Origin: Rubrivivax sp. | GTDB taxonomy: Bacteria > Pseudomonadota > Gammaproteobacteria > Burkholderiales > Burkholderiaceae_C | DNA: 64,000 nucleotides | NCBI GenBank assembly: GCA_022843905.1 | Contig: JALHMT010000025.1 | Coordinates: 1-64,000, forward strand | Direction of reading: 5' to 3' | Part shown: one piece after another, positions 3,302-27,730 of the stretch | Layout: each line of letters opens with the position of its first letter | Position numbering within the stretch: the first letter of the stretch is position 1 | Made by a program: the position numbers and the translations under genes | The notes under the pieces: generated by a model | Database searches by the model: none | What the model was told of the DNA's origin: nothing | The model's input: only the letters and a program-made list of their open reading frames with translations

Positions 3302-3370
3302 GCACGGTTCGTCTCGTCGACCTTGAAGGCGACGCCGAGCGCGAGATCCTGGTGGTCACCAGGAGCGCGC

Positions 3371-5202: not shown

Positions 5203-5247
5203 ACGCGGGCCCGGGCCCGGCAGACTGGTCCCGAATGGATCGAACTC

Positions 5248-5547: not shown

Positions 5548-5565
5548 ACCAGGAAGGAGGTCACC

Positions 5566-6582: not shown

Positions 6583-7185
6583 ATGCCGTTTGATGCATTA
6601 AAAATAGCGCTTGGCGAGTTGGCACTGGTACAGGCTGGGTATCCCTTCCGCACCACCGTGGAAGAGGTGCCCGACGGTGACGTGCACGTCATTCAGATGA
6701 AGGACGTCAGCCCCGAACTTGGGATCGACTGGTCGGCCGTCATCCGCACTCGGCTGGCCGGGCGCAAGCAGCCGGACTGGATCGTTGATGGCGACATCCT
6801 CTTCGCCGCCAAGGGCGCCCGGTTCTATGCGGCCTGTGTCGCCGCTGCCTTGCCCAACGCCGTGTGTGTGCCGGCCTTCTTCCACCTCAGGGTCAGGCGC
6901 GAGGCCGCGCTCGACCCGGAGTTCCTGGCTTGGCAGATCAACCAGATGCCTTGCCAGCGTCAGTTGTTGCAGGCCGCCGAGGGCAGCAGCCTACTCAGCA
7001 TTCGCCGCGCAGTGCTTGAGCAGTTAGTCCTGGCCGTTCCCCCCATCGTCGAGCAGCGCCGCATCGTTGCGCTGGCCGGCCTGGCGGTGCAGGAGCGGCT
7101 AGCGCTGCAGCGCCTCATCCACAACCGCGAACAGCAGCTCCAGGCCATCGCCGAAGACCTTGGCGCACAAGCAAGCTCACATTGA
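6583..7185 (+). CDS. half-size type I restriction specificity (HsdS-like) protein
   Basis: The 200-residue protein resembles one half of an HsdS subunit: a single target-recognition domain (about residues 1-150) followed by one helical arm. The conserved ending of the domain, QLVLAVPPIVEQRRIV (about 148-163), is typical of HsdS, and the C-terminal helix would act as the spacer. Full HsdS proteins have two such units, so this one would need to dimerise or pair with another subunit. It overlaps nothing upstream, starts about 7 bases after the promoter -10 box, and is followed 14 bases later by hsdM. Together with the complete HsdS downstream, it gives the operon two specificity proteins. Confidence 0.7.
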   Translation: MPFDALKIALGELALVQAGYPFRTTVEEVPDGDVHVIQMKDVSPELGIDWSAVIRTRLAGRKQPDWIVDGDILFAAKGARFYAACVAAALPNAVCVPAFFHLRVRREAALDPEFLAWQINQMPCQRQLLQAAEGSSLLSIRRAVLEQLVLAVPPIVEQRRIVALAGLAVQERLALQRLIHNREQQLQAIAEDLGAQASSH

Positions 7186-7199
7186 CCGCAGGACACCGC

Positions 7200-10987: not shown

Positions 10988-13900
10988 GCCAAATTGGCCC
11001 AATTGCGCGAGAACAGTTTGCAGCGCATGTGCCAGCCCTTCATGTTCTGTCCAACCTTGGTTGGAACTTTTTGACCGTAGCGCAGGCCCTTGCGATGCGC
11101 GGCAGCACGCGCGAGGTAATTCTGCGGGCGCGCCTCGTCGAGGTGCTGCAGACCCGCCGATACGAATACAAGGGTCAGTCTTACCAGCTGTCCAGCAGCG
11201 GCATCGAGCAAATCGTGCGCGAGCTGTCGGCGCTTAGCCTGGCCGAAGGCCTGATGCCGGCCAACGAACGGCTGTATGGCAAGCTGGCGCTGGGCATCAC
11301 GGTCACCGAGTTCATGCCCGACGGCAAGAGGCACCAGCCGACGATTCCGGTCATCGACTGGTCCGACCCGGCTGCCAACCGATGGGACGTGACCGAAGAG
11401 ATGGAGGTGCTCTCCGCCCAGGGCACGCACCACCGCACGCCGGACGTGGTGTGCTTCGTCAACGGGCTGCCGCTGGCGGTGATCGAAGCCAAGCGCCCGG
11501 AGTCCACGCACCTCGGCAAGTCGATGGTGACCGAGGGTGTCAGCCAGCACCTGCGCAACCAGCGGCCCGACGAGATTCCGCAGCTCTTCGGCTACGCCCA
11601 GCTGCTGCTGGCCGTGAGCCAGACCGAAGGGCGCTATGGCACTACCGGCACCGCCGCCAAATTCTGGGCTCGCTGGCGGGAGGAAGAGTTCGACGCGGCG
11701 CACCTGGCCGCGGCCAAGAACGCGGCGCTGCCGCCTGCCGTGCGCGTCCGACTCTTCGAGGGCAAGCCGGCGGCTTTGGCCAGCTACTTCGATGCGCTGT
11801 GGGCGCAACCCATGGAGCCCACCGACCAGGACCGCCTGCTGGTCAGTCTGCTCACGCCGGGCCGGCTGCTGGAGTTCCTGCGCAGTTACGTCCTCTTCGA
11901 CCGGAAGGTCGGCAAGATCGTGGCCCGCTACCAGCAGTTCTTCGGCATCCGGGCGCTGCTGGCGCGCATCCAGCAGCTGCGGCCCGACGGTGGACGTGAG
12001 GGTGGCGTGGTGTGGCACACCACGGGCTCGGGCAAGAGCTTCACGATGGTGTTTCTCACCAAGGCGCTGCTGCTGGTGGACGCGCTGGCCGAGTGCCGCG
12101 TGGTGGTGGTGACCGACCGCGTGGATCTGGAAGGCCAACTCTCGCGCAACTTCATCTCGGGCGGTGCCTTCGGCTCGGCCATCGCATCGCAGAAGGATGG
12201 CGAGAAGAGCCGCGCGATGACCGGCCGTGACCTGGCGCGCCGCATCGGCAGCGGCACGGAGCGCATCACCTTCACGCTGGTGCACAAGTTCAACTCGGCT
12301 TCCAAGCTGCTGGAGTGCCGCAACGCCTCGGCCAACCTGATCGTGCTGGTGGATGAAGGCCACCGCAGCCACGGCGGCGAGACGCATGAGCGCATGAAGA
12401 AGGCGCTGCCGCGTGCGGCCTACATCGCCTTCACCGGCACGCCGCTGCTGAAGGACGAGAAGACGTCGAACAAGTTCGGCCCCATCGTGCATGCCTACAC
12501 CATGCAGCGGGCCGTGGAAGACGAAACGGTGGCGCCGCTGCTCTACGAAGAGCGCGTGCCCGAACTGACGATCAACGAAGAGGCCGTCAACCGCTGGTTC
12601 GACAAGATCACCGCGGGCCTGAGCGACGCGCAGCGTGGTGACCTGAAGAAGAAGTTCGCAAAGAAGGGCGCCATCTACGGGGCGGCTGGCCGCATCGAGC
12701 TGATCGCCTGGGACATCGCCACCCACTTCAGTGAGAACATCAAGAAGCTGGACCTGGGCCTGAAGGGGCAGGTGGCCACCGACAGCAAGCTCGACGCCAT
12801 CCGATACAAGCAGGCGCTGGACGACACCGGACTGGTCACCAGCGCCATCGTCATCTCGCCGCCCGACACGCGTGAGGGCAACGCCGAGGTGGATGAGGAG
12901 AAGCTGCCCGAAGTGCAGAAGTGGTGGAAGCAGACTGTGCTGTCCCATGGCCTGGACGCCGAGACCTACGAGAAGCAGGTGGTGGCCGACTTCGGCACCG
13001 ACGACGGCCCTGACCTGCTGATCGTGGTGGACAAGCTGCTCACGGGTTTCGACGAGCCGCGCAACACGGTGCTGTACATCGACAAGCCGCTGAAGGGCCA
13101 CAACCTGATCCAGGCCGTGGCCCGGGTGAACCGGCTGCACGACGACAAGCGCTACGGCGTGCTGGTGGACTACCGCGGCATCCTGAAAGAGCTGGACACG
13201 GCGATCCGCGCCTACCAGGACCTGGAGACCCGCACCCAGGGCGGCTTCGACGTGGCCGACATCGAGGGGCTCTATCGCAACGTCGACACCGAGTACAAAC
13301 GCCTGCCGGGCCTGCACGATCGCATGTGGTCGTTCTTCAAGGGTGTGGCCAACAAGCTGGACCGGGAACAGTTCCGACAGGTGCTGACGCCCAGGTTCGT
13401 GAAAGCACCGGACGGGGAGGAGTACGACGAGCGGCAGAAACTGCGCGACGACTTCTACGCCGCGGTGACGGCCTTCGGCCTGTGCCTGCAGACGGCGCTG
13501 TCGAGCCGGAGCTTCTTCGAGGACAAGAGCTTCTCGGAAGCGCAGATCGCCCGCTACAAGGCCGACCTGCGCTTCTTCACCGAGCTGCGTATGACGGCCC
13601 GCCGAGACGCGATGGAAGTGGTGGACTACAGCGCCTACGAAGAGCAGATCCGCAAGCTGGTCGACAAGCAGGTGATCGGCAAGGAAGTCCGCGACCCCAA
13701 GGGGGTGTACCTCGTGCACCAACTGGGCCGGGCCGAGGACCCGAAGGACTGGTCCGAGGAGAAGACACGAAACGAGACCGACCTGATCCGAACCCGGCTG
13801 CGGAAGACCATCGAGCAGGACCTGGCCGACGACCCCTACGCACAGAAGGTGTTCGGTGAACTGCTGCGCCAGGCGATCGCCGAGGCCGAGGCGATGTTCG

Positions 13901-14283
13901 ACCACCCGCTCAAGCAGTACGCCTTGTTCAAGGACTTCGAGGAGCAGGTGACGTCGCGCCAGCCGCCCGGTACGCCTGACCTGTTGGCGGACAAGCCGCA
14001 CGCCCGGGCCTACTTTGGCGTACTCCGCCTTGTGCTGGGCGATGGCGCCGTGGAGGCGATGGACGACGCGGCCCGCCAGACCCTGGTGGCGCAGGCCCTG
14101 GAGATCGACGACGTCGTGCGAACGGCCGTGGCCGAGAACTCGCTCAGCCCGCAGAGCATCGAGGCGGCCATCCGCAAGGGCTTGCTGCCGCTGCTGTTCG
14201 GCAAGCTCGGGCTGGACCGGGCCAAGGAGGCTGTCGAGCAGATCGTGCAGATCACCCGCCTGGGCCTCGGGAAGGCGCCATGA
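10984..14283 (+). CDS. hsdR: type I restriction endonuclease subunit R
   Basis: This is a 1099-residue translocase-nuclease. The PD-(D/E)XK site is D154 and EAK at 168-170 within an N-terminal HSDR_N domain. The SF2 helicase begins with TGSGKS (347-352) and has a DEGH box (457-460). The C-terminal EcoR124-like region (about 830-1099) is helical. It starts on GTG with a 4-base overlap of hsdS (GTGA) and overlaps the metalloprotease gene by 4 bases. The enzyme pumps DNA and cuts far from the unmodified recognition site. All catalytic residues are present, so the system looks active. Confidence 0.95.
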   Translation: MSQIGPIAREQFAAHVPALHVLSNLGWNFLTVAQALAMRGSTREVILRARLVEVLQTRRYEYKGQSYQLSSSGIEQIVRELSALSLAEGLMPANERLYGKLALGITVTEFMPDGKRHQPTIPVIDWSDPAANRWDVTEEMEVLSAQGTHHRTPDVVCFVNGLPLAVIEAKRPESTHLGKSMVTEGVSQHLRNQRPDEIPQLFGYAQLLLAVSQTEGRYGTTGTAAKFWARWREEEFDAAHLAAAKNAALPPAVRVRLFEGKPAALASYFDALWAQPMEPTDQDRLLVSLLTPGRLLEFLRSYVLFDRKVGKIVARYQQFFGIRALLARIQQLRPDGGREGGVVWHTTGSGKSFTMVFLTKALLLVDALAECRVVVVTDRVDLEGQLSRNFISGGAFGSAIASQKDGEKSRAMTGRDLARRIGSGTERITFTLVHKFNSASKLLECRNASANLIVLVDEGHRSHGGETHERMKKALPRAAYIAFTGTPLLKDEKTSNKFGPIVHAYTMQRAVEDETVAPLLYEERVPELTINEEAVNRWFDKITAGLSDAQRGDLKKKFAKKGAIYGAAGRIELIAWDIATHFSENIKKLDLGLKGQVATDSKLDAIRYKQALDDTGLVTSAIVISPPDTREGNAEVDEEKLPEVQKWWKQTVLSHGLDAETYEKQVVADFGTDDGPDLLIVVDKLLTGFDEPRNTVLYIDKPLKGHNLIQAVARVNRLHDDKRYGVLVDYRGILKELDTAIRAYQDLETRTQGGFDVADIEGLYRNVDTEYKRLPGLHDRMWSFFKGVANKLDREQFRQVLTPRFVKAPDGEEYDERQKLRDDFYAAVTAFGLCLQTALSSRSFFEDKSFSEAQIARYKADLRFFTELRMTARRDAMEVVDYSAYEEQIRKLVDKQVIGKEVRDPKGVYLVHQLGRAEDPKDWSEEKTRNETDLIRTRLRKTIEQDLADDPYAQKVFGELLRQAIAEAEAMFDHPLKQYALFKDFEEQVTSRQPPGTPDLLADKPHARAYFGVLRLVLGDGAVEAMDDAARQTLVAQALEIDDVVRTAVAENSLSPQSIEAAIRKGLLPLLFGKLGLDRAKEAVEQIVQITRLGLGKAP

Positions 14284-15073: not shown

Positions 15074-16189
15074 ATGCAGAACGCTAACGAGGACTTCAGC
15101 ATGCTGCTGAAGCTTCCGCCTGACTATCCTTTGGCGGACCTGTATGCGCTGAGCGAGCGTCTGGCTGCCGCCGAGGTGTGTGTGCCGGGGTATGTGCCGC
15201 CACCCGTAGGCCTGTTTCACCCCGATGGGTTCTTCTACGACCAGCACATCGAGCGATCGAAGACGATCCTGATTCCCGATCGAAACGTGGTGTCCCGAAT
15301 GGCACAGCTGGCGCGCGGCCGCCGCGTGGAGGCGGATCAGCAGGTCCGAACGGCTGCCGGCCTCCTCGCGTTTGCGCAGTGCCTCGATATCGAGATCGAC
15401 CCGTCGGTGGCCTTCCACGAGCTTGCGCACACGGCTGGCAACGAGGCCGCGTGGGACGAGCTGGGGTGGTTTCGGTCCGCCGATAACGCCAGGGTTCACG
15501 ATGTGATGGACGTCGCCTTGGGCCGTGGGGATCAACTTCGCGCGCCGGGCCTACCGCACGAGGTTCAGAAGCACGACCTCGCCAAGCCGCTCAGGCGCTG
15601 GAACCGGAACTACATCATCGCGTTGAAGGTGATGGATCTCGAGATGCAGGATCTGAGGCCTATAGACCGGGTGTTGCGCCTGCTGGATTGGATGAGGAAC
15701 GATTTCATGTTCGGCGGGCCTGCGGCCATGCTGGCCAGCGTGTACTTCGCGCCCAACTCGCCACCGAAACGCCGGGTCTTCAAGGACAAGAACTCTTCCG
15801 ATCGCGAGGCAGCGATAGCAGGCGCCCGCAATGCGGCTTGGGATCTGACGCACCTGAGTGAGTTTGTCCGCAAGGTGAACGAGGCCGGGTCCGACGGGCG
15901 GCCCCGGTTCCTGTTTGCCAGCTTCGACCGGCACTTGCGTCTGATGGCCAAGCTGCTGTTCGACTGTGCAACCGAGTTGTCCGCTGCCGACGCGCTTCCA
16001 CAGGCGCTTTCGAGTTGGTGGCCAGAGACGGACGCCAGATGGATTGCGTCAACGATCGATCAACATCTGGAGCGCATCAATGCTCCTGAGTGGCGCGCCA
16101 AGACATCGCCGAGGCCCGACTTCATCAACCGGATGATCGAGCAGGGCGAACAGATCGTCCGCGCGGCGATGGTGAAACCGAAGGGCTAG
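15074..16189 (+). CDS. hypothetical protein with IPDRN and HELAH motifs
   Basis: I do not recognise this 371-residue protein. Two features stand out. One is TILIPDRNVVSRM (residues 64-76), a strand ending in Asp like the start of a PIN-type nuclease. The other is VAFHELAHTAGNEAAWDEL (112-130), which contains HELAH and so matches the HExxH zincin pattern, although the segment may instead be a helix of a PIN-like fold. There is no signal peptide or membrane segment. A GAGGCGAGGGG ribosome site directly precedes the ATG. It starts 29 bases after the metalloprotease gene and ends 84 before the RHH gene, so it may belong to either cluster. Confidence 0.6.
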   Translation: MQNANEDFSMLLKLPPDYPLADLYALSERLAAAEVCVPGYVPPPVGLFHPDGFFYDQHIERSKTILIPDRNVVSRMAQLARGRRVEADQQVRTAAGLLAFAQCLDIEIDPSVAFHELAHTAGNEAAWDELGWFRSADNARVHDVMDVALGRGDQLRAPGLPHEVQKHDLAKPLRRWNRNYIIALKVMDLEMQDLRPIDRVLRLLDWMRNDFMFGGPAAMLASVYFAPNSPPKRRVFKDKNSSDREAAIAGARNAAWDLTHLSEFVRKVNEAGSDGRPRFLFASFDRHLRLMAKLLFDCATELSAADALPQALSSWWPETDARWIASTIDQHLERINAPEWRAKTSPRPDFINRMIEQGEQIVRAAMVKPKG

Positions 16190-16273
16190 GCGCGCGCCGC
16201 CACGGCGCAGCTCTCGCGCACTGCAAACAGCAGTACATTTGAAGGATCCATCCCCACTGAGTTCATCGCCAAC

Positions 16274-16462
16274 ATGAGACGCCCAAAGATCAAGACAGCG
16301 ACGCTCACGCTGCGCCTTGACCCAAGGATCAAGGCCGCGGCCGAGGCGGCTGCAGAGAGGGATCACCGCAGCCTCACGAGCCTGCTGGAAGTGTTGATCG
16401 TCAATCACTGCCGGGCGTTGGGGCTTGGGCCTGAGCATTATTCAAAGGAAGTCCGCCAATGA
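16274..16462 (+). CDS. ribbon-helix-helix-like small protein
   Basis: The 62-residue protein has the layout of an RHH DNA-binding domain: a short strand TATLTLRLD (8-16), a helix KAAAEAAAERDH and a second helix SLTSLLEVLIVNH. Such proteins usually act as dimeric autorepressors or antitoxins. Its stop overlaps the NADAR start (ATGA), making it the first gene of a coupled operon. An operator in the 84-base gap upstream (16190-16273) would be expected, but no clear repeat was identified there. Confidence 0.6.
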   Translation: MRRPKIKTATLTLRLDPRIKAAAEAAAERDHRSLTSLLEVLIVNHCRALGLGPEHYSKEVRQ

Positions 16463-17064
16463 CCAAGACGCCGACGACGGCGCGCAAACGAGCCGTCACG
16501 CAGATTGCTACTGTCGACGAAATTCGGTTCTATCGCGCCAACGAAAAGCCGTATGGCGCATTCAGTAACCTCTACAAATGCCCGGTGGAGTTTGAGGGGA
16601 CAGTGTTCCCGACATCGGAGCACGCCTACCAAGCGGGCAAGGCGCGAAAGCCCGCTGTGCGCCAGTGGATCCTCAGCGCCCCGACGCCTGCGCTGGCCGC
16701 AATGGCCGCGCACGGCCTGTACGTGTGGGACGTGGTTCCTGACTGGGCCCAGACAAAATTTGAGCGCATGCGAGCGGTGCTTCGAGCGAAGTTCGACCAG
16801 CATCCCGCACTGCGCGAGCTGCTGTTGTCTACAGGCACGGCGAGGCTGGTGGAGGCCGGGACCGTGAACAACGCGGTCAATCGGCTATGGGGCGAGGTGG
16901 ACGGCAAGGGTGAGAACATGCTTGGCGTGATGCTGATGGAGCTTCGAACGGCGTACGCCAAAGAGAAGTCCGCCGGCACGCGTGCAGCGAAACGGTCACC
17001 GAAATCCAGCAAGCCTTCGGCAGGCCGAGGGCTCTCTTCCAAGCGAGTAGGCGCGCCCGCATGA
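16459..17064 (+). CDS. NADAR domain protein (YbiA-like glycosidase)
   Basis: The core of this 201-residue protein, about residues 20-170, matches the NADAR/YbiA family. It includes IRFYRANEKPYGAFSNLY, the FPTSEHAYQAGKA motif and a C-terminal MLGVMLMELR helix. NADAR enzymes hydrolyse N-glycosidic bonds of ribose-linked nucleobases; known members act on riboflavin intermediates and on ADP-ribosylated guanine. The first about 18 and last about 35 residues are basic and probably disordered. Overlaps of 4 bases on both sides tie it to the RHH gene and the SIS-HAD gene, so the reaction is probably part of a sugar-nucleotide pathway or a defence trigger run by this operon. Confidence 0.85.
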   Translation: MTKTPTTARKRAVTQIATVDEIRFYRANEKPYGAFSNLYKCPVEFEGTVFPTSEHAYQAGKARKPAVRQWILSAPTPALAAMAAHGLYVWDVVPDWAQTKFERMRAVLRAKFDQHPALRELLLSTGTARLVEAGTVNNAVNRLWGEVDGKGENMLGVMLMELRTAYAKEKSAGTRAAKRSPKSSKPSAGRGLSSKRVGAPA

Positions 17065-19046
17065 CCGTCTCGAACGTGGCTTCAGCGGCCAATCACTATG
17101 AGGGTGAGCTGGCGCAGCTGGGCGACAGCTACGCGGCCGCGTGTGCCGCCGACATCGAGACGTTGAAGCTTGCCATTGCCAGCACTGCCGAGGCGAGCAT
17201 GATCGGAGTCGGCTCGGGAGGCTCGTTTACGGTGGCGTCGTTACTGTGCAGCCTGCACGAGGCGTACACCGGCCGGGTGTCACGCCCGTCGACACCGCTG
17301 GAGATCATCTGCACGCCGGCGCTGGCCGCGTCGAGTCCGGTCTTCCTGGTCTCGGCCGAGGGCAAGAACCCCGACATCGTAGAGGCCCTTGAGCGGTCGC
17401 GGCGCTTCAGCTCGCGCACGGTCCACGTGCTCACCAACCGGCAGGACAGTCCTCTGATGGCGCATGTGCAGGCGCTGCCGGGCGTGAAACCCTATGTGTT
17501 CGAGCTGACGAAGAAGGACGGCTACCTTGCGACCAACAGCCTGCTGCTCGACGCGGTGCTGGTGGCGCGCGCCTATGGCGAACTCAACGGCCGCCGTCAG
17601 CCAATGCCTGCGGAAATCACGGCACTACAGGTCGGTGTGCAGAGCGTGCAAGAGTGGCTGGCCTCTGCACAGCCCTTCATCGCCGAGGCAGTGCGGCGTG
17701 GCGCACTCACCGTCGTCTATTCACCCTTGCTGCGAGCCATCGCCACCGACTTGGAGTCCAAGCTCTCTGAAGGGGCGCTTCTGCACATCCAGCTGGCCGA
17801 TCTTCGTTCGTATGCCCACGGCCGGCACCTGTGGCTCGCACAGCGCCCGCAGGACTGCGCCATCCTTGCGCTGGTCGAGCCATCGCTGGGCAGGCTGTGG
17901 GACGACATGAGAAGCAAGTTCCCTAGCGGCATTCCGACGCTGACGATGCCCTTGGCGGGCGCCGATCCGGTCCACCTGATTGCGGGTCTGGTTGCTCAGA
18001 TGCATTTGGTGGCCGCGATCGGCCGGGAGCTAGGCACCGACCCTGGCCGGCCCGAAGTCCCGACCTACGGACGGGAGATCCACTACGCAAACCTTCGAGA
18101 CGTGATCCCCCTGCCACCGCTGGCGGGGCCTGCCGAGGAACAGTCCAAGTACGAGGTGCTCGGCGCCCACTGGCCCTCGCGGCGAGACCACGGCGCGATG
18201 CGCCGCGCGGCCCGGGCATTCGCGAACACGCTGCGTGCCCAGCGCTTCAAGGCCGTGGTGTTCGACTACGACGGGACGCTATGCAGCTCGCAGAGCAAAG
18301 ACGGTCCGCCGCCGTCCAGCGTGGTGGAGCATCTTGTCCGGCTGGCCCGCGCAGGCATCGTCGTGGGCATTGCCTCAGGTCGGGGCGGCTCGATTCAGAG
18401 CTGCCTGCAAGAGGTCCTGCCGCACGACGTCCTGCCAAAGATCAGGCTGGGCCTGTACAACGGTGGCTGGATCGCCGGGGCGGATGCGCCACCGGCGCCG
18501 CCGGCCCAGACCAGCGAATTCCTCAGCCATGTGACGCGCATCGTGGTGCGCCTGCGTGCCCTCGGCGTGCCCATCCTGGCCCACCGCACTACGCATCCCT
18601 ACCAAGTCAGTGTCCGGTTCCGCGAGGGCCTGTCGACCGATGGGATGTGGTTCGTGATCGCCGACGCGTTGCGCCAGGCTGGCCTCGATCTCTCCACCAT
18701 GGTTCGCAGCAAACACTCGGTCGACATTCTCGCGAAGGGCGTTAGCAAGTCGGCGCTTGTTGCGGACATCATCCAGAAGGACAAGGTCGACCCGTACGAG
18801 ATCCTGACGATGGGCGACCAGGGGGCGTGGCCAGGGAACGATGCCGCGCTGCTGGAGCACCGCTACTCGCTAAGCGTGGACATGCCTTCGCGTCGACTGG
18901 ACCGGGCCTGGAAGCTCGCACCCGCCGAGAAGCGCGATGTCGATGCCACGCTCTGGTACTTGGAGCGCATGGTGCTCGAGGGCGGCGGCGCATTTCGATT
19001 GACCCTGCCGGATGCGCGCGACGAAGGGGAGACCAAAAGTGCGTGA
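17061..19046 (+). CDS. SIS-domain / HAD-phosphatase fusion protein
   Basis: The 661-residue protein joins two enzymes. Residues about 25-330 form a SIS (sugar isomerase) unit with the phosphosugar loop GVGSGGSF (49-56) and SAEGKNPDI (98-106) where SIS proteins bind the phosphate. From about 395 a HAD phosphatase follows: DYDGT (402-406, nucleophile D402 and acid D404), a motif II in IASGRGG, and an acidic motif IV around GDQGAWPGND (585-594). The pair suggests isomerisation or recognition of a sugar phosphate followed by dephosphorylation. It overlaps the NADAR gene by 4 bases and the next gene by 8. I know of no characterised protein with this exact fusion; the substrate is unknown. Confidence 0.8.
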   Translation: MTVSNVASAANHYEGELAQLGDSYAAACAADIETLKLAIASTAEASMIGVGSGGSFTVASLLCSLHEAYTGRVSRPSTPLEIICTPALAASSPVFLVSAEGKNPDIVEALERSRRFSSRTVHVLTNRQDSPLMAHVQALPGVKPYVFELTKKDGYLATNSLLLDAVLVARAYGELNGRRQPMPAEITALQVGVQSVQEWLASAQPFIAEAVRRGALTVVYSPLLRAIATDLESKLSEGALLHIQLADLRSYAHGRHLWLAQRPQDCAILALVEPSLGRLWDDMRSKFPSGIPTLTMPLAGADPVHLIAGLVAQMHLVAAIGRELGTDPGRPEVPTYGREIHYANLRDVIPLPPLAGPAEEQSKYEVLGAHWPSRRDHGAMRRAARAFANTLRAQRFKAVVFDYDGTLCSSQSKDGPPPSSVVEHLVRLARAGIVVGIASGRGGSIQSCLQEVLPHDVLPKIRLGLYNGGWIAGADAPPAPPAQTSEFLSHVTRIVVRLRALGVPILAHRTTHPYQVSVRFREGLSTDGMWFVIADALRQAGLDLSTMVRSKHSVDILAKGVSKSALVADIIQKDKVDPYEILTMGDQGAWPGNDAALLEHRYSLSVDMPSRRLDRAWKLAPAEKRDVDATLWYLERMVLEGGGAFRLTLPDARDEGETKSA

Positions 19047-20145
19047 CCAGAACGCCGCCAAATTGCTGGCCAAGGTGATGGGATGGGAGGACCTCGAGAC
19101 CGTTCCGCTGGTGCTGCCGACCCTGCAACTCCTCGCCGATTTCAAGTACGACCACTACCAGCGCTTCGGCCCGGGGCGCCGCTTCATCGAGAGCCTGGCG
19201 CTGTGGCTTCACCAGTTCGCGCCTGCGGATCGGCAGGCCGCCTTGGATCTAGTCCTGGATCGCCTGGTGTTCATCTCTGACGCTGAGTTCTCGCATCTGG
19301 TACTCACAGCCTACCGCGACTTGATCGTGCAGGAAAGGATGCGACTGGTCTCCGAGGAGTACGAGATCCCCTCGTTCAGGGTTCGGGAGATCGCACGCCA
19401 CCGCCGCTTCGAGCAACTGCGGCTGAACTCCTTGTACCTGGGCCTGAGCGACGGTGCGCGCACCAACGAACTTCGCCGGGCCAGCGACGGCGAAATCGGC
19501 AATGAGCAGATCTGGCAGGCCTACGAACTGGGCGATGAGAAGGCCGAGGACATGCTCGAGGATCTCGGTGCGTCGTTGAAAAGCGCCGGCTTCGCATCGG
19601 AGGACCCGCGCTTCAACCTGATCTGGCTGCTGGATGACTTTTCTGGCAGTGGCAACACATACATCCGCTATGACGGCGCTTCGCGCCGGTTCAAGGGCAA
19701 GCTGCCCAAGATCTACCAGCGGCTTCAACAGCAAGGCATGGTGGACCGGTCGCACTATGAGGTGTTCCTGCTGCTCTACACCGCGACGCGTCAGGCAATC
19801 GACCACATCGAGTACTGGTCGGAGCGGTTCACGACGGACCACGGAGTCAAGCCCTTGCAGCTGCGCGTGCTGTGCCCGATCGAAGCCGAAGTCGCGCTGA
19901 CTCGCAATGCTGGTCCCGAACTGCAGGCCCTGCTATCCAACCCGGCCTACAGCAACAAAGGCGTGGTCGACAAGCACTTCCTCGTCGGTGGGACCGACGA
20001 TCCCAGCCTCGGCTTTGCCGGATGCGCATTGCCTGTGGTGTTGGGCCACAACACGCCGAACAACTCGGTCTTCCTGTTGTGGGGACCGGAGCAGTTCAAG
20101 CCGCACGGACTGTTTCCTCGCGTCAGCCGTCATCGGGAGTTCTGA
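19039..20145 (+). CDS. phosphoribosyltransferase-like protein (PRTase-CE type)
   Basis: The 368-residue protein contains LLDDFSGSGNT at residues 197-207. This resembles the PRPP-binding loop of type I phosphoribosyltransferases (two acidic residues, then a small-residue turn ending in Thr). An all-helical N-terminal half (about 1-180) precedes it, and Rossmann-like strands follow, ending near FLLWGPEQFKPHGLFPR. This layout fits the PRTase-CE group that travels with ORC/CDC6-like ATPases. The GTG at 19039 is chosen because GGGGAG lies about 8 bases upstream; it overlaps the SIS-HAD gene by 8 bases. Catalysis would transfer or release a ribose-phosphate; the base or acceptor is unknown. Confidence 0.7.
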   Translation: MRDQNAAKLLAKVMGWEDLETVPLVLPTLQLLADFKYDHYQRFGPGRRFIESLALWLHQFAPADRQAALDLVLDRLVFISDAEFSHLVLTAYRDLIVQERMRLVSEEYEIPSFRVREIARHRRFEQLRLNSLYLGLSDGARTNELRRASDGEIGNEQIWQAYELGDEKAEDMLEDLGASLKSAGFASEDPRFNLIWLLDDFSGSGNTYIRYDGASRRFKGKLPKIYQRLQQQGMVDRSHYEVFLLLYTATRQAIDHIEYWSERFTTDHGVKPLQLRVLCPIEAEVALTRNAGPELQALLSNPAYSNKGVVDKHFLVGGTDDPSLGFAGCALPVVLGHNTPNNSVFLLWGPEQFKPHGLFPRVSRHREF

Positions 20146-22058
20146 TGGCATACAACGCCAACCCCTTCCTGGAACGTATGTCCGAGCGCACGACTTCGGA
20201 CATGGAGTTCGTCCGGCTGTTCTCGCCGAAGATCCTCGAGAAGCTGGCAGACGACGCCTTCGATGGCGCGGTGCATGTGTTTCGTAGTGCGCCTGGTGCT
20301 GGCAAGACAACGCTACTTCGCGCGTTTACGCCGCCGGCGCTGCGCGCCTTCTGGCACTCTCGAAACCGCCCCGAGCTGTCGGAGTCGTTCCAGAAGCTAC
20401 TCAATCGCGGGCTGCTGACCGAGGGCGAGAGCCCGCAGCTGCTGGGCGTCTACCTCAGCTGCGCGTCCGGGTATGCCGATCTGCCCTCCAGTGAGGGCTT
20501 GCAACAGGAGGGGCTCTTCCGGGCACTCCTGGACTGCCGGATCGTGCTGCGCACGCTGCGCAGCCTGGGCCTGCTGCTGGGCTTCAGCACCCCCGAGCAG
20601 TTGGCTGAGGTGTCGCTTGACCATTCATCACTGCCCAACCTGCAGGGCATCCCTGCGATCGCGAACGCGTTGGAGCTGGCGACCTGGGCCGAGGAACACG
20701 AGCAGCGGGTCTACGCGCAGCTCGACACGTTCATGGGGCCGGTCAACGCCGCGCTGCCGGCGCAGTTTCGATTTGAGGGCGTGCTGTGGCTGCAGTCGAT
20801 CGCGTTCACCTACGAAGGACGGAGCGTTGGCGGGAAGCGTCTCCTGATGGTCGATGACATGCACAAGCTGCGCCGCAAGCAGCGGGCGCTGTTGGTCGAC
20901 GAGCTGACGGTGATGCGCTCCTCGATCCCGATCTGGCTGGCAGAGCGCACGGTCGCGCTGGGAACCGAGCTGCTGTCTCAAGGTGCCCGCGAAGGCCGCG
21001 ACCTGCGCGAATACAACCTCGACCGTCTATGGAGCGATGCCAAGGGGATGAACCAGTTCATCTCCTACGCGCAGAACATCCTCGATCGACGCATGAAGAA
21101 CCAGGATGCAGTGCCGGTGGGGTCGTTCACCCAATGCCTCCGCGACGAACTGGTCAGCAGCGAGGTGCGCAGCCAGGTTGCGCGGGGCATCGAGCGCTTC
21201 CGCAGCGAGGTTGAGCGGCACCAGTCCAAGCAGCGCTATGCCCAGTGGCTCGCGCGGGCGGACCAGTACACGTCCGACCAGAACCTGGAATCGCTGCTGG
21301 AACTCTATGTCACCCGAATCTTGCTGGTACGTGATGAGTCCAAGCGCCAGTTGTCCCTGGACCTAACCCTGACCGAGGAAGAGCTCGAGGACCGCGACAG
21401 CTCGCAGGTCCGCAACGCCGCAGAGCTGTTCATGCACGAAGAGCTTGGGATCCCCTACTACTTCGGCTTCGAGCGACTGTGCGTGATGGCCACGAGCAAT
21501 GTCGAGGAACTGCTCGGGCTCGCGGCTGCGCTCTACGTCGGTCTTCAGGCCAAGCAGGTGCTGCGCAAGTCCGAACCCATCCTGTCGCCGCTAGAACAAG
21601 ACAAGTTGCTGCGCGAGGCTGCCGCTCGCAAACGTGACTTCATTCCCAAGTCGCACACCGAAGGTACCCGAGCCCAGCGCCTGCTGGATTCCATCGGCGC
21701 GTTCTGCTACGACCAGACGTTTGCGCCGAATGCGCCCTACGCGCCCGGGGTGACGGGGGTGAGGCTGTCGCGTGCCGAGTTGGTCAAACTGACCTCGCCA
21801 GGGGCGTTCGGCCCGCCGGGGTTGGTCCTGCAACGCGTGTTGGCAGAGTGTGCCGCCGAGAATCTTCTGGTGCAGCGGGAAAGCCAGGCCACCGGGTCAC
21901 GCGACAGCGGGACCGTCTTCTACCTCAACCGATCGCTTTGCGCCCACTACGGCTTGCCGCTGCAGATGGGGGGATGGCGGGACGTTACCGTCGGCGAGCT
22001 GATGAGATGGATGGAGCGTCGTCTCACGCCCAGCCGCAAGAGCCTGGAGACGAGCTGA
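20145..22058 (+). CDS. ORC/CDC6-like AAA ATPase
   Basis: The 637-residue protein begins with a short helical lead and a Walker A APGAGKTT (residues 49-56). A Walker B LLMVDD (233-238) is followed by a sensor-like segment, and a long helical region with winged-helix-like character fills the C-terminal half (about 430-637), as in ORC/CDC6-type STAND-like ATPases. Such proteins couple ATP binding to DNA or protein recognition and are common regulators in prokaryotic conflict systems. The start codon overlaps the PRTase stop (TGATG), and the stop lies 1 base before the next start. It is the likely sensor or switch of the cluster; that role is inferred. Confidence 0.75.
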   Translation: MAYNANPFLERMSERTTSDMEFVRLFSPKILEKLADDAFDGAVHVFRSAPGAGKTTLLRAFTPPALRAFWHSRNRPELSESFQKLLNRGLLTEGESPQLLGVYLSCASGYADLPSSEGLQQEGLFRALLDCRIVLRTLRSLGLLLGFSTPEQLAEVSLDHSSLPNLQGIPAIANALELATWAEEHEQRVYAQLDTFMGPVNAALPAQFRFEGVLWLQSIAFTYEGRSVGGKRLLMVDDMHKLRRKQRALLVDELTVMRSSIPIWLAERTVALGTELLSQGAREGRDLREYNLDRLWSDAKGMNQFISYAQNILDRRMKNQDAVPVGSFTQCLRDELVSSEVRSQVARGIERFRSEVERHQSKQRYAQWLARADQYTSDQNLESLLELYVTRILLVRDESKRQLSLDLTLTEEELEDRDSSQVRNAAELFMHEELGIPYYFGFERLCVMATSNVEELLGLAAALYVGLQAKQVLRKSEPILSPLEQDKLLREAAARKRDFIPKSHTEGTRAQRLLDSIGAFCYDQTFAPNAPYAPGVTGVRLSRAELVKLTSPGAFGPPGLVLQRVLAECAAENLLVQRESQATGSRDSGTVFYLNRSLCAHYGLPLQMGGWRDVTVGELMRWMERRLTPSRKSLETS

Positions 22059-22059
22059 C

Positions 22060-23232
22060 ATGCTTTGGGATCACTATGTCTTTCGCCGCGGTGACGGTGT
22101 CCATGAGCTGTGGGACGACCTGCTGAAGGATCGGCCGGTCAAGCTGCTGTATATCGCCGGCCGCGGCTTCGACGTGCGTGCCCAGTCGGTCATGCGCGAC
22201 TTCGTGGCGGGACAGCAGGGCGCCGGAAGGCAGACCGTGAGCGCAAAGCTGCTGCTGCTGGGCTTTCACGGCTACGAGTTGGACGCCGATGTCGAGGCGC
22301 TCACGCAGGAGAATGCCGCGGCGCTGGAAGCGATCTTCGCCCCGTTGGGCGAAACGGTCACCGTGACAGTCACGCGGCGCGAGGGCGAGGAAGAGGCAAG
22401 TGCCAGCGATGGCCTGCGCCAGCGGGTGAAGGCCGTTCTCGACGAGATCGCCGGCAAAACGGACATCATCCTGGACGTCAGCTCGCTTCCGCGCGCGACC
22501 TACCTCGCGCTGCTCACGAACATCCTGCACAGGCTCGTGCCAGAAAAGGTGCCAGCGGAGGGCAAGGAGCATCCGCTGTATGCCAGCGGCGTCAACTTCC
22601 AGGTGCTGGTCGCGGAGGATGCCAAGCTGGACGGGCAGATCCGGGCCGAGGACCCGAGCAACGACCTCGTGAACATCCCGGGGTTCTTAGCGACTTGGCA
22701 GCTTGAAAGCGTGCAGGACTGGCCATTGGTGTGGTTTCCCGTCCTCGGCGAAGGGCGGGTGAATCAGTTGCAGAAGATCGGAGGTTCGATTCCGGCGGAG
22801 GCTGAGGTCTGCCCAGTGGTCCCGCATCCATCGAAGGACCCGCGCCGTGCCGATCGGCTGCTGGTCGAGTACCGGGAGCCGCTGTTCGACAGTCGCAAGA
22901 CGCCGACGTCGAACATTCTGTATGCCCAGGAGGCTCAGCCGTTTGAAGCCTACCGGCAGATCCTGGGAGCGATGAAGCGCTACCAGAGCAGCATGTCGAT
23001 CCTCGGCGGCTGCCGGCTGGTGATGTCGCCGCTTGGAAGCAAGCTGATCACGCTCGGCACCGGACTGGCCTGCTTCGAGATGCGGCCGACAGACTTGACC
23101 GCCAAGTACGGCGTGGCGATCCCGCACGCTGAGCCGCGGCGATATATCGCTTCGGTTGAGGCCCTGCGCCAGTCCAAACCCGATGTTTCCGTTCTCTTGC
23201 TGACGGGTGAGGCATATGGCGCGCCGACGTGA
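22060..23232 (+). CDS. Rossmann-like protein of unknown function, last gene of the cluster
   Basis: I do not recognise a named family in these 390 residues. Visible features are a strand and loop LLYIAGRGFDVR (29-40) near the start and a second strand ending LDVSSLPR (138-145), each at the end of a predicted strand as in Rossmannoid folds. A later helix-rich segment contains a GGCRLVMSPLGSKL stretch. No signal peptide or membrane span is seen. It begins 1 base after the AAA gene stop and is the last gene before a convergent minus-strand gene. It could sense a nucleotide-like ligand or be the effector. Confidence 0.65.
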   Translation: MLWDHYVFRRGDGVHELWDDLLKDRPVKLLYIAGRGFDVRAQSVMRDFVAGQQGAGRQTVSAKLLLLGFHGYELDADVEALTQENAAALEAIFAPLGETVTVTVTRREGEEEASASDGLRQRVKAVLDEIAGKTDIILDVSSLPRATYLALLTNILHRLVPEKVPAEGKEHPLYASGVNFQVLVAEDAKLDGQIRAEDPSNDLVNIPGFLATWQLESVQDWPLVWFPVLGEGRVNQLQKIGGSIPAEAEVCPVVPHPSKDPRRADRLLVEYREPLFDSRKTPTSNILYAQEAQPFEAYRQILGAMKRYQSSMSILGGCRLVMSPLGSKLITLGTGLACFEMRPTDLTAKYGVAIPHAEPRRYIASVEALRQSKPDVSVLLLTGEAYGAPT

Positions 23233-23270
23233 GGGGCAAGTAGTCGAGTCGGCGTGACCGTTCGCAGGCC

Positions 23271-23897: not shown

Positions 23898-25047
23898 CGG
23901 AACCTCCGTTGAAGTGGCCGAGCATCACTGTTGCAAAGTGGGCGCAGGGCGTCCAATCGAAACACCGGTCGCTGCCCCCTCCAAAAACGTGGGTTGGCAG
24001 AGCTGAGGACGATCAAGCGCGATGCCGCTTCGCGCGTGGGCGCGATGCCGTCCAGTGCGTGCAGGCCTGGGGAGACGGGCCGCGGGCTATCGGCGTAGCA
24101 AGGTACTCGGTCCCCATGAACCGAGATCGCCGTCCAATGCGAACGGGAAGGCTTGCGACGGGTGCTGGGGAGCCTCCGTATTCGGGCCCAGTGCTGTAGC
24201 GCCGACCAGGTGCGCTGCCGGACTCAGCGTCGACATGAATGTGTCTGCAATGCCCCGTGTCGGTTCTGGTTGCTCCTCGATCCTCCATGGATATTGAGCG
24301 AAGTCGGCGCTGGTCGCGAAATTGCCCAATGACGCCGGTGCTGGCTGCGTGGTCCATGACTCCGAGGTCGAATTTGATCCAGTGCCGGCGGTCGCGGGAG
24401 TCACCCCGGACAGTACGAGCGGATGCCACTCTGGTTTGGCTTCACCGATCGCAGCGCTGCCGCAGTCCAGATAGGAAGTCGGTCCCCAGATCGTGCCGGA
24501 CTGGCGCTGCGGCGAAGGGAGGCGCTTCTTCGAAAAGACGGCGGCCTTCAGGCGGGTCGACGTAGGCGGTGGGGGCTGTTGTGCCGGCAGCCGAGTTGGC
24601 TCGCCACTTCCCGTCCGATCTGCGTTTCGGCTTCGCTCGCAGAACTCGATCTCCGTCCGGCACTGAGGAGCATCGTCGGCAGGGGCGCGAGATGAGGGTC
24701 GACGCCCGTCCGACGACGGCTCTTCATGCAGGGGCCGGCCAAGCTCGCGAAGCCTGCGCCGCAGGCGTTCCAGCAGAGAGTTCACCAACCGTCTCCTGAC
24801 CTCGAGGTGGGCATCGGCGGGCCAGCGCATCGTCGCGATGCCGACCCGGTGACTATGCAAGGGCGGCCGACGTTCGTCCAACCGAAACGAACCAACTGGC
24901 CCCCGCCGAAACCAGCCGCCGTCGCCGGGCACCGGATGCAGCGGCTCAGAGTGTCTGGGCGCCCTGGCTCCGCTTGCGTTGGGATCGCGCCCGCCGATCT
25001 TGAAGACGCAGTCTCTCTTCGTATCGTGATCAGGTAGCAACAGCAAC
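23898..25047. other. gene-poor region
   Basis: Long frames are present on the minus strand (for example 24087-25175), but their products are Arg/Pro/Ser-rich with no domain, no ribosome site and no consistent codon bias. I therefore see no supported gene. The 3' end contains the likely promoter of the exonuclease gene starting at 25048. The stretch may be a decayed cargo gene, because several hydrophobic and charged blocks look protein-like without forming one frame. Confidence 0.35.
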
Positions 25048-25944
25048 ATGGAGACCGTGATGAGCAGCGACCTGCACGATGACGACACCGAGGTGGCGGA
25101 GGCCTGCGAAGCGCCGGCCACGCCAGCCCGCGAGGTTCCCGACATCCCCTTCGGTGTGACACGCGGCATGAGCAACGAGGACTACCACGGCGACCGCAGC
25201 GCCGTCTCCTCGACCCAGCTCAAGCGCATGCTGATCAGCCCTGCGCACTTCCTCAGCGGCATCACCGATCCGGAGGAATCCACCGAAGCGCTGCTGTTCG
25301 GCTCGGTGCTGCACGGCCGGCTGCTGGAGCCCGACACCTTCGAGTCGCGGTTCTTCGCGATGCCGAAGGTGAACCGCGCCAGGAAGGAAGGCAAGCAGCG
25401 CTACGCCGAATGCATGGTGCAGGCGGCCGGGCGCACCGTGTATCCCGAGGCCTGGAAGGAGCCCATCGAGCGGATCATCGACAACGCGATGACCCACCGC
25501 AAGGCGCGCGAACTGCTGGCCAAGGGCGAGGCCGAAGTGGCGCTGGTCTGGCTGGACCCCGACACGGGGATCAAGTGCAAGATCAAAATCGACTGGTGGC
25601 ACGACGCCCGCACGCTCGCCGACGTGAAGTCCACCGAGGACGTGACCTTCGAAGGCTTCCGCCGTTCCTGCGCCAGGCTCGGCTACGCGCTGTCCGCGGC
25701 CATGTACTGCGAGGGCGTCTACCAGCTGACCGGCGAGGAACCCGAGTGGGCCTTCATCGCCTGCGAGAAGGGCCGGCCGAACACCGTCGCCGTCTACCGC
25801 GCGATGCGCCCGTTCCTGGAGCGTGGCCGCAGCGACTTCCGGCGGGCATTGCATCGGCTGGCCGAGTGCCGGGCGCGAGGGCACTTTCCGATGCTGCAGG
25901 CCGAGGGCGAGTGGGAGGACATCGACCTGCCGCGCTGGGCGTGA
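25048..25944 (+). CDS. RecE-like exonuclease (DUF3799, PD-(D/E)XK)
   Basis: The 298-residue protein matches the C-terminal nuclease domain of RecE/exonuclease VIII-type proteins. LLFGSVLHGRLLEPDTFE (about residues 90-107) is the N-terminal family signature. IKCKIKIDWW followed by ADVKST supplies the Asp and the (D/E)xK of the PD-(D/E)XK site. Such enzymes resect double-stranded ends to produce 3' tails for annealing proteins. No RecT/Beta annealing gene is next to it in this window, so its partner is unknown. The true start may be the ATG at 25060, since both have weak ribosome sites. Confidence 0.85.
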   Translation: METVMSSDLHDDDTEVAEACEAPATPAREVPDIPFGVTRGMSNEDYHGDRSAVSSTQLKRMLISPAHFLSGITDPEESTEALLFGSVLHGRLLEPDTFESRFFAMPKVNRARKEGKQRYAECMVQAAGRTVYPEAWKEPIERIIDNAMTHRKARELLAKGEAEVALVWLDPDTGIKCKIKIDWWHDARTLADVKSTEDVTFEGFRRSCARLGYALSAAMYCEGVYQLTGEEPEWAFIACEKGRPNTVAVYRAMRPFLERGRSDFRRALHRLAECRARGHFPMLQAEGEWEDIDLPRWA

Positions 25945-26086
25945 CCCGAGGGGCCTGCAATGACCTTTGCAGGCGCCCAGCCGCTGGCGGCCAGCTTCAG
26001 CCTGCTCGGCTGGTGCAACGGGACTGCAGCCCCGCGCCGGAAGAGCCCGCCATCGACTGGGTGCCCGACCAGGGGCACCGACAAAC

Positions 26087-26431
26087 TCAGCTGACGGCGA
26101 AGTCCGCGAGTTGCTTGCCCTCTTCGAGCCGAGCGACCAGCCACCGCGGCTTGTTGCCGCGGCCGGTCCAGGTGTTGTCGCCGTCGCGGTATTTGATCGC
26201 TACGGGCTTGCCCTTCGCGGCCGACTTGCGCGCCGGCGCCTTCTTGGCCGCGGCCCGTCCAGTCGAGGCCTTCTTGGCCTTGCCGAACAACTGGTCGGGC
26301 GTGATGCCGTAGTGCTCGATGGCCGTGCGGATCCGGGCGATGACGCCCTCGACCTCCTTTGCCTTGAGCGCCTCTGCCTCGGCCTGGAGTTTCTGAATCT
26401 GGGCCTGAAGCTGGCCGTACGACTTTGCCAA
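26087..26431 (-). CDS. H-NS-like histone family protein
   Basis: The 114-residue protein has an N-terminal helical dimerisation region with AEAEALKAKEVEGVI. A basic Ala/Lys-rich linker (about 60-80) leads to a C-terminal AT-hook-like motif, YRDGDNTWTGRGNKPRW, the DNA-binding signature of betaproteobacterial H-NS/BpH3 proteins. The TTG at 26429-26431 is chosen because AGGAG lies about 7 bases upstream and the protein then begins AKSYGQL; a longer ATG version would start without a ribosome site. Carrying its own silencer could damp expression of the element. Confidence 0.85.
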   Translation of the reverse strand: MAKSYGQLQAQIQKLQAEAEALKAKEVEGVIARIRTAIEHYGITPDQLFGKAKKASTGRAAAKKAPARKSAAKGKPVAIKYRDGDNTWTGRGNKPRWLVARLEEGKQLADFAVS

Positions 26432-26584
26432 ATCGTTCTCCTGTAACGCCGCAAGTCTACGTTGGCGAAGGCCAGTTTCCATTGTGTGATCGAGAGCCGG
26501 CCAAGGCGCCGCGAGGGAATTGAGCTCGAATGCTTCCGGCTCGCGCTGTGTGGAACATGTCGAACGTTGGACATGGCGGTCCCC

Positions 26585-27730
26585 TCACGCAGTCGGAGGC
26601 GCGACGGCCTCGTCGCCTGCTACCGGCGCGGTGGCGCGCGCATGGGCCTGGCTCTTGCCTAAATACGCATCCGAAATCGCTAGGCGACCGTGACCCAGCT
26701 CAGAAGCGACGGCCAGGCGTGCGGTGGCATCTCCCTCGCCATTGCCGGCACCGCCGCGCACCGGCGACGGCTCGCCGGTCAACTCCTCGTAGCGGTCGTT
26801 GGCGTGTTGGTGCCGCAGGCCGTGCGCGGTGACCCCCAGGGCAGCCTTCGTGATGCCGAAGCGGCGCAGGACGTTGTAGAAGCGGTTGGCGTTCTGCGTC
26901 GCGGTGCGGCCGGGAGCGCCCACGTACTGGCCCGGCGCCACCGACTGCAGGGCGCGTTGCAGCAGGGCCTCCTGCTCGGGCGTCTTCACTGGGATGTCAC
27001 GCGGGCGGCCGCCCTTGGTGCCGTAGCGCACCCGCAGGAACCGCTCGCAGTCCGGGAAGTGCTGCGCGTCACGCGGGTTGGCCTCGTCGCGTGTGATGAG
27101 CGCCATGTGCGGCCGGAAGTGCCGGGCCTCCTTGGCGCGCAGGCCGAAGTGGTAGCAGAGCTCGAGCTGGATGCCGACCCACGGGTCGTAGGCCGTGACC
27201 TCGGCGATCTTGGCCTCGACCTCGACGCTGCGGGCGATCCAACTGCGGTCGAAGTTGGCCGTGCGGTCGCGGTGCACGTAGTGCGAGTCGTCGCCGAAGT
27301 AGGTGGCGACGTCGCGGACCATGCCGGGCCGGCCGATCCAGGCCGCGTAGGTGCGCAGGAAGCTCAGGTAGTTGTGGACCGTGGCTACCGAGAGCTTGCG
27401 CTCGGCCCACAGCCGCGCGACGGCCTGCACCTGGCGGTTCGTGAGGATGCGCGGGTCGGCCTCGCGGAACGTGGTGTTGAAGCGCAGGTCATCCCAGAAC
27501 TTGAAATAGAAGCGCTCGCGGTCGAGCATCGTCTTCTGGGAGACGGTCTTGATGAGCTTGGAGTGCTCCTGGTTGTGGATCACGAGCACGCAATGGAGCA
27601 CGCGCTTCCAGTCGCGCGTGCCCTGCGGCGCCGTGTCGAGGACGTTCTGCGGGTTCCTCGGCGCGCCCGCCGGCGACCGCCGCGCATAGACCAGCTTCTT
27701 CGGCGGCGCCTTCTGTTTCTTCGACGACAT
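26585..27730 (-). CDS. tyrosine recombinase / integrase
   Basis: The 381-residue protein has the catalytic set of tyrosine recombinases: R198 in HFGLRAKEA, K239, H303-xx-R306 in HGLRHQHAN, H347 in LGHGR and the nucleophile Y356. An N-terminal core-binding domain (about 60-170) precedes it. The ATG at 27728-27730 with GGAGCAAGAG upstream is preferred over a long unsupported extension. It resembles the Integrase_1 group common on integrative elements, but it is not located at an element end here, so it may recombine an internal site or an island nested in the element. No matching att repeats were found. Confidence 0.85.
   Translation of the reverse strand: MSSKKQKAPPKKLVYARRSPAGAPRNPQNVLDTAPQGTRDWKRVLHCVLVIHNQEHSKLIKTVSQKTMLDRERFYFKFWDDLRFNTTFREADPRILTNRQVQAVARLWAERKLSVATVHNYLSFLRTYAAWIGRPGMVRDVATYFGDDSHYVHRDRTANFDRSWIARSVEVEAKIAEVTAYDPWVGIQLELCYHFGLRAKEARHFRPHMALITRDEANPRDAQHFPDCERFLRVRYGTKGGRPRDIPVKTPEQEALLQRALQSVAPGQYVGAPGRTATQNANRFYNVLRRFGITKAALGVTAHGLRHQHANDRYEELTGEPSPVRGGAGNGEGDATARLAVASELGHGRLAISDAYLGKSQAHARATAPVAGDEAVAPPTA

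Follow-up and report, generated by a model that had tools for sequence, protein, structure and literature searches.

A cassette of six genes on one strand, located at 16274-23232 of a 64,000-nt window of Rubrivivax sp. DNA (the whole stretch analyzed here, positions 1-64,000 of contig JALHMT010000025.1), unites a predicted conflict triad with a set of enzymes of sugar metabolism. The triad, which is already represented in Pfam and PADLOC, consists of a phosphoribosyltransferase (PRTase) of the PRTase-CE family, an ORC-CDC6-like AAA ATPase and a CARF6 protein, whereas the add-on consists of a SIS-HAD fusion protein, a NADAR N-glycosidase and, in related loci, a PfkB kinase. The interpretation we put forward, tentatively and as one possibility, is that of a horizontally moving cassette, perhaps defensive, of the form "effector + ORC-CDC6-like ATPase + CARF6" with a dedicated sugar-phosphate module.

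A six-gene cassette that recurs as a unit

The six open reading frames (ORFs) lie where a preliminary description of this DNA had placed them, though six genes give five junctions and not the six that it counted. According to the ORF list neighboring genes overlap at four of these, by 4, 4, 35 (or 8) and 1 nt, and stand 1 nt apart at the remaining one, the choice between 35 and 8 nt depending on which of the two PRTase-CE starts in Table 1 is taken. Its domain calls were essentially right, with the NADAR, HAD, PRTase-CE and ORC-CDC6-like matches above the Pfam cut-offs and SIS recovered by a family profile, and ribose or sugar-phosphate chemistry is indeed a common thread of the cassette genes. 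The RHH call on the first gene, which is kept in all eight related loci described below, corresponds to weak matches (best in Pfam DUF6364, E 0.0063 and 17.4 bits, under the cut-off of 27.3; TacA1, 0.017). The last product, taken for a Rossmann protein, is instead a CARF protein (PADLOC CARF6, E 6.5e-125), probably with two CARF domains. As for the operon being new, its PRTase-CE, ORC and CARF6 core already belongs to database families, to which a sugar module has been added. Among the repeat families listed (20 of 38 direct, 25 of 30 inverted) no pair occupies both cassette ends, and promoter and terminator scans gave counts close to those of shuffles (2 against a mean of 0.8; 6 against 3.9), which are not used as evidence.

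Table 1. Features of the cassette in window coordinates
Feature	Position	Strand	Evidence
Small RHH-like putative regulator, first cassette gene	16274..16462	+	ORF; weak Pfam matches; tblastn conservation in 8/8 related loci
NADAR N-glycosidase, closest to YbiA	16459..17064	+	PF08719, TIGR02464, YbiA profile match
SIS region (~28-254) fused to HAD-IIB phosphatase (~395-610)	17061..19046	+	Pfam/NCBIfam for HAD, family profile for SIS
PRTase-CE, type I phosphoribosyltransferase fold, phosphoribosyl pyrophosphate (PRPP) loop LLDDFSGSGNT	19012..20145, alternative start ATG 19039	+	PF24390
ORC-CDC6-like AAA ATPase, Walker A APGAGKTT (K54), Walker B LLMVDD (D237)	20145..22058, ATG	+	PF24389
CARF protein (CARF6), read as two CARF domains	22060..23232	+	PADLOC CARF6
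DNA common to window and Xenophilus sp. L007 (86%)	16262..23234	+	blastn

A single scan of genome contigs returned eight related loci (L002-L009), in all of which tblastn recovers the six genes in the same order; their hosts are metagenome-assembled genomes of Burkholderiales, Rhodocyclales and Chromatiaceae, and Rhabdochromatium, Xenophilus and Arenimonas. The element in L002 is almost that of the window (97.9% across 12,952 alignment columns), and L002 is the only one of the eight with the restriction gene, the YgjP gene and the 371-aa gene just upstream. The blastn homology extends over 16218-23232 in the Rhodocyclales locus L004 and 16364-23227 in L003, in addition to the L007 segment of Table 1; as these edges fall at the cassette borders, the unit that moves is the set of six genes. 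Outside it, L004 matches parts of the surrounding element (pieces within 1293-6433, and 24999-25771) but has no match to the restriction system, so that cargo has been exchanged around the cassette.

The ATPase was further found by tblastn in 12 plasmid records (five predicted conjugative, one actinobacterial), and the cassette is carried by four IMG/VR contigs and by four genomes besides that of the window. Across the 29 loci made up of these, the window and L002-L009, the core of SIS-HAD, PRTase-CE, ORC-CDC6-like ATPase and CARF6 is complete in 28, including L044, L047 and L048, where some genes are split over frames; in the 29th the contig ends at the PRTase gene. The complete cores come from contigs and plasmids of proteobacteria, from the actinobacterial plasmid and from the IMG/VR contigs. 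NADAR lies near the core in 22 of the 29 and PfkB in 17, with both present in ten and no locus lacking both. Twelve loci, of the window's type, form subtype 1, which is NADAR-led on the same strand and has no PfkB. The 17 PfkB-bearing loci form subtype 2, in which NADAR is encoded on the opposite strand in eight and on the same strand in two, while in seven no NADAR is seen in the fetched stretch. The preliminary description had held that recurring NADAR, SIS-HAD, PRTase and AAA neighbors on unrelated elements would support a system, and such neighbors do recur, in 8/8 genome loci, on plasmids and on IMG/VR contigs.

The cassette is rare and patchy: in one sample of 398 Pseudomonadota genomes a full-length SIS-HAD occurs in six and a full-length PRTase of the family in five. 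In those five the two genes adjoin, and all six SIS-HADs lie beside core genes, the sixth between CARF and PfkB on a 4,051-base contig; three further genomes of the 398 have short matches to the C-terminal motif of the PRTase only. PF24389 exceeded its cut-off in 14 genomes, four of them cassette genomes (G000, G026, G187 and G384); in G190 (L034/L063) the ORC match is below the Pfam cut-off, yet the family profile recovers a full cassette. Other below-cut-off ORC matches, those of L022-L038 and further ones outside the list, were set aside; most are short and cover an ATPase motif. E. coli genomes gave no match. On viral contigs the ORC profile was run over 600 pattern stretches and returned no relative, which is a miss of the method because four contigs found through other genes do carry the ATPase. 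The genome of the window (G000) has a second copy of the cassette on C138 (L095, 7194-8550), truncated by the contig so that NADAR and the beginning of SIS-HAD are left. NADAR matches in this genome number two, one in each copy. On plasmids L041 and L044 two core sets lie around one SIS-HAD/PfkB/NADAR module, the second set of L044 being seen as ORC and CARF at the locus edge. In L048, a Rhizobium plasmid, PRTase, CARF and SIS-HAD are split over several frames and are either decayed or mis-sequenced. A nucleoside 2-deoxyribosyltransferase gene (L043, 1241-2116) lies upstream of the Sphingomonas cassette.

For comparisons within the family L048, with its split genes, was used neither in the 24-locus reference list nor in alignments A1-A5, and L002, being nearly identical to the window, was left out of A1-A5 and the distance table. 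The second core copies of L041 and L044 are likewise absent from the distance table. The split L044 PRTase and L047 SIS-HAD were omitted from A2 and A3 respectively, the longer L047 piece being kept in the distance table.

The carriage on plasmids invites a reading in which the cassette serves the maintenance or competition of plasmids or integrative and conjugative elements, as an addiction or plasmid-interference system that would sense replicating DNA, and not anti-phage immunity. Besides the 12 plasmid records, this would suit the S. meliloti copy near repB/repC, the Sulfitobacter copy amid conjugation genes, the lack of the ATPase in any phage record, and the ORC/CDC6 resemblance, which suggests replication-linked DNA binding. 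It sits less well with copies far inside long contigs, such as that of Xenophilus (L007, 1.16 Mb), and with those on IMG/VR contigs. Conflict systems are commonly carried on plasmids, so plasmid carriage does not separate defense from plasmid service; we regard this reading as unlikely.

The core triad and its interchangeable effectors

Ten of the genomes above the PF24389 cut-off lack the cassette, and in four of them (L051-L054) the neighbors of the ATPase were scanned with Pfam and PADLOC. An effector, the ORC ATPase and CARF6 stand in a row in all four: the effector is a short PRTase-CE in L051 (294 aa, against 377 aa in the window), an HD-CE in L052 and L054, and a metallophosphatase in L053, and the CARF6 matches range from E 2.1e-79 to 3.3e-220. 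In the stretches retrieved at these loci, of which L054 lies near a contig end, family profiles detected neither SIS-HAD nor NADAR nor PfkB. The core is therefore an interchangeable-effector triad, and the sugar module was added to its long PRTase subtype. The predicted ORC/CE/CARF6 systems (PF24389, PF24390, PF24391) likewise place the ORC ATPase between a CE effector and CARF6, and the cassette has the PF24389 ATPase with a CE effector on one side and CARF6 on the other. It differs from the four other triads in the addition of SIS-HAD with NADAR and/or PfkB, and from L051 in its longer PRTase-CE.

Pairwise identities of PRTase, ORC and CARF are strongly correlated with one another (rho 0.85-0.90; 0/999 permutations as high), as expected for one complex. 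The correlation is lower for SIS-HAD (rho 0.46-0.60; 0/999 permutations as high) and weak for NADAR (rho 0.24-0.38; against ORC, 52/999 permutations were as high). Between the subtypes mean identity is 63% for NADAR and 27-37% for the other proteins. This pattern suggests a physical machine of three proteins (PRTase, ORC and CARF) served by a metabolic module, with which the two core sets per single SIS-HAD/PfkB module in L041 and L044 agree; it also suggests that NADAR is either strongly constrained or more freely exchanged.

The PRTase-CE matches PF24390 with E 3e-14 (53.9 bits, cut-off 27), and the ATPase PF24389 with E 8.4e-24 (84.7 bits, cut-off 27). P50, G51, G53 and D237 of the ATPase are invariant and K54 and T55 nearly invariant in 23 members. 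BREX, with its BrxC/BrxD ATPases, also has PglZ and a methyltransferase, neither of which is among the six cassette genes. The PRTase is related to PADLOC PRTase_III-A (E 2.7e-15), an effector shared with the type III-A retrons. PRTases have been named as probable effectors in retrons, and one that adjoins DprA works with it in an antiphage system (PMC9122126; for PRTase usage in retrons see also PMC12548924). A retron reading of the cassette was rejected, as its contig (C25) has no reverse transcriptase match, two RVT_1 matches lying on C35 and C36; at gathering thresholds the window matches no Rfam family, not every retron RNA being in Rfam. Searches of PDB chain sequences with the PRTase and CARF profiles gave nothing useful. 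At L096 (6500-9169) and L097 (1642-4046), in two genomes, the PRTase-CE profile finds a protein (E 2.1e-18 and 4.3e-12, respectively) with a similar-looking gene of ~400 aa behind it, possibly a separate two-gene pair.

CARF domains sense ligands. The last cassette protein, which has no Pfam match, displays the CARF fold: CARF6 is matched by 25/25 family members, and each half has a largely conserved CARF-like motif (DVSSLPR; SPLGSK). No fused effector domain, nuclease included, was recognized on it, in contrast to Can1 (6sce) and the CARF effectors of type III CRISPR systems. None of the six proteins was recognized by Pfam, PADLOC or NCBIfam as a cyclic-oligonucleotide synthase. In six host genomes the Csm1/Cas10 model exceeded its cut-off in none (with one below-cut-off match in G190) and the SMODS family in one, the window's own, on another contig; there is thus no evident cyclic-oligonucleotide source, as judged by one Cas10-type and one CBASS-type model only, with other synthase families not searched.

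A sensor domain with no recognized fused effector, conserved CARF-like motifs and the lack of a synthase would all be compatible with a signaling module, in which PRTase-CE, SIS-HAD and PfkB build a small phosphoribosyl or sugar-nucleotide messenger, with CARF as its reader, NADAR and HAD as the enzymes that break it down, and ORC as switch or effector. However, CARF6 also accompanies ORC together with HD-CE, a metallophosphatase or a short PRTase-CE at loci where the sugar enzymes were not found, which argues that its ligand is probably independent of the sugar module. Such a scheme would moreover leave the cassette without a dedicated toxin, and the restriction of the synthase search to two models also tells against it; we hold it, the main rival of the mechanism proposed below, to be rather unlikely.

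The sugar enzymes and the NADAR glycosidase

The HAD half of the fusion protein is of type IIB (Pfam Hydrolase_3, E 2.1e-8). Pfam gives nothing significant for the SIS half of the window protein and reaches SIS in just 1 of 22 family members (E 0.00094). The family profile built from A3 matches the SIS structures 8eol and 3hba (both E 7.6e-6) and 2aml (3.5e-5), and we infer a tandem SIS. Invariant in 22 members are D402, D404, K563, D586, N593 and D594 of HAD and S98, E237 and H253 of SIS. The E237 region ("KLSE") and H253 ("AHG") align opposite the KLKE...HG pair of NagB-II 8eol, which we take to be the catalytic E/H of GlmS-type SIS enzymes. Given the conserved residues in HAD, NADAR, ATPase and PRTase, these four cassette enzymes look catalytically competent.

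No PfkB match was found in the window. The PfkB relatives match fructokinase and ribose-1-phosphate kinase NCBIfam models, all far below cut-off, and 1/7 matches the fructoselysine 6-kinase model, again far below cut-off. In fructosamine catabolism FrlB is a SIS deglycase and FrlD a PfkB kinase, and the same two fold classes lie side by side in the PfkB subtype; the cassette, however, has its SIS fused to HAD, has no importer and, in the loci examined, includes the ORC/CARF core. An ADP-heptose-like pathway (SIS + PfkB + HAD) was set aside because the HAD is of type IIB and no nucleotidyltransferase was recognized.

The NADAR protein matches PF08719 with E 2e-25 (90.3 bits, cut-off 35.1), and its profile matches the structures of YbiA (2b3w, E 1.4e-30) and 8bau (E 3.2e-12). 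It scores above the riboflavin-intermediate N-glycosidase model TIGR02464 (82.8 bits, cut-off 73.7) and far under the cut-off of the NADAR anti-phage model (62.3 against 240 bits). E54, K61 and E132 are invariant in the 18 members of A5. By hand, from spacing and the YbiA alignment, we equate them with the catalytic residues E43, K50 and E125 of PMC11543638, the third tentatively. On this hand-made correspondence, E132 is probably the YbiA glutamate rather than a BC4488-type aspartate.

For the ADP-ribosyltransferase (ART) toxin YarT a YbiA-type NADAR is the antitoxin, and the ybiA gene of E. coli lies in one operon with ybiB, for which DNA-binding and phosphoribosyltransferase activity are predicted (PMC11125620). 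The cassette thus has a NADAR in common with the YarT-YbiA and DarT1-NADAR pairs, closest to YbiA like the YarT antitoxin, whereas its ribosyl-transferring partner is a PRTase and not an ART. An ART toxin-antitoxin reading was rejected because Pfam and PADLOC recognized no ART family in any of the six products. A 2026 study of predicted defense systems names a PRTase and proteins with NADAR domains among them (PMC13092281). On IMG/VR contigs L075 and L077-L081 there are NADARs 59-66% identical to that of the cassette, around which no further large cassette gene is seen; L075 also has an RHH-profile match.

The NADAR also bears on the view that the genes form a metabolic or damage-repair operon, in which NADAR, SIS-HAD and PfkB would dispose of ribosylamines and Amadori (ketosamine) phosphates under the regulation of PRTase and ATPase. 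The window NADAR passes TIGR02464, and NADARs cleave riboflavin intermediates (PMC11543638). The PfkB relatives match sugar-kinase models, if below cut-off, and the SIS half resembles NagB-II in its KLKE...HG-like pair. Against this, no transporter is among the six genes, whereas the fructosamine operon frlBONMD includes an importer (PMC12632257). The distribution of the full PRTase and SIS-HAD (5 and 6 of 398 genomes) is also rare and patchy for such a role, and the core triad occurs without NADAR, SIS-HAD and PfkB. A metabolic or damage-repair operon is, in our estimate, very unlikely.

Proposed mechanism, surroundings and significance

PRTases attach phosphoribose through N-glycosidic bonds, and NADARs hydrolyze N-ribosyl bonds. 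These chemistries, together with the YarT antitoxin, the ybiA-ybiB operon and the retron PRTases, favor a gated phosphoribosylating effector with a dedicated eraser and sugar clean-up. In the scheme we propose, the CARF protein would sense a ligand and, jointly with the ORC-type ATPase, which may be bound to DNA, keep the PRTase-CE effector in check until a trigger frees it. The PRTase would then move 5-phosphoribose from PRPP onto an amine-bearing target, for example a nucleobase, free or in nucleic acid; alternatively, it may act by depleting PRPP. NADAR, by hydrolyzing N-ribosyl bonds, could serve as eraser or antitoxin, and SIS-HAD, with PfkB in the other subtype, might isomerize, deglycate or dephosphorylate the leftover sugar phosphate. 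A bolder version, which we think quite doubtful, is a phosphoribose "write-read-erase" immune circuit, the first of its kind. In it PRTase-CE would write an N-phosphoribosyl mark or messenger, NADAR would erase it, and CARF6 would read a ligand that is not a cyclic oligonucleotide; SIS-HAD and PfkB would handle the Amadori or free sugar-phosphate form, and an ORC/CDC6-type ATPase reporting invading DNA would form the gate.

Directly upstream of the cassette the window encodes type I restriction-modification genes (6583-14283: S, M, PDC-S05, S, R), the R gene being found, among the genome loci compared, in L002 only, and then the 371-aa gene (15074-16189), which has no Pfam, NCBIfam or PADLOC match. 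At the left end of the window (1242-5041) two PAPS-reductase/DndC-like genes, one of them DndC-like at 3371-5041 (E 1.2e-39), are shared with the Rhodocyclales locus L004. To the right of the cassette (25048-27730) are a DUF3799/RecE-like gene and a minus-strand Integrase_1 recombinase, and the minus strand at 33-60 kb reads like conjugation genes, with just a weak TraC match (46576-46986).

In a flank test with PADLOC at E 1e-10, 83 flanking proteins were compared with 83 controls. The former, taken from our own gene calls, were 100 aa or longer and numbered no more than six on either side of the cassette at ten loci (L003, L004, L005, L007, L008, L009, L055, L056, L058 and L063). The latter came from 17 regions and were chosen from 145 gene calls, one region (L104) beginning beside the G026 cassette and so blunting the control. 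The flank families listed (25 of 46) include MkoA (2 members), MkoC, PD-Lambda-4_B, PDC-S28, RtcR-type, DndC and Dsr2, and the control families listed (25 of 64) type III methyltransferase, PDC-M48B, PD-T4-6 and mad6; among those listed there are more defense kinds in the flanks than in the controls, counting families and not members.

Several observations weigh against a defensive cassette of the kind proposed. The flank test gave no countable excess of defense genes over controls at the ten loci, and among the loci examined the window alone has a clear defense neighborhood. No phage record holds the ATPase. By passing TIGR02464 and failing the anti-phage model the NADAR favors a metabolic substrate; being conserved yet weakly co-varying, it may be an independently exchanged part, and its absence from 7 of the 29 fetched stretches indicates that it is not an obligatory antitoxin in cis.

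The cassette is a compact and bounded gene set, which makes testable what the PRTase effectors of retrons and their relatives do, and also what CARF proteins sense where no cyclic-oligoadenylate synthase is evident. It further suggests a reason why an immune-type ATPase should be accompanied by an N-glycosidase, a sugar isomerase-phosphatase and a sugar kinase, and hints at a ribose-based branch of bacterial immunity.

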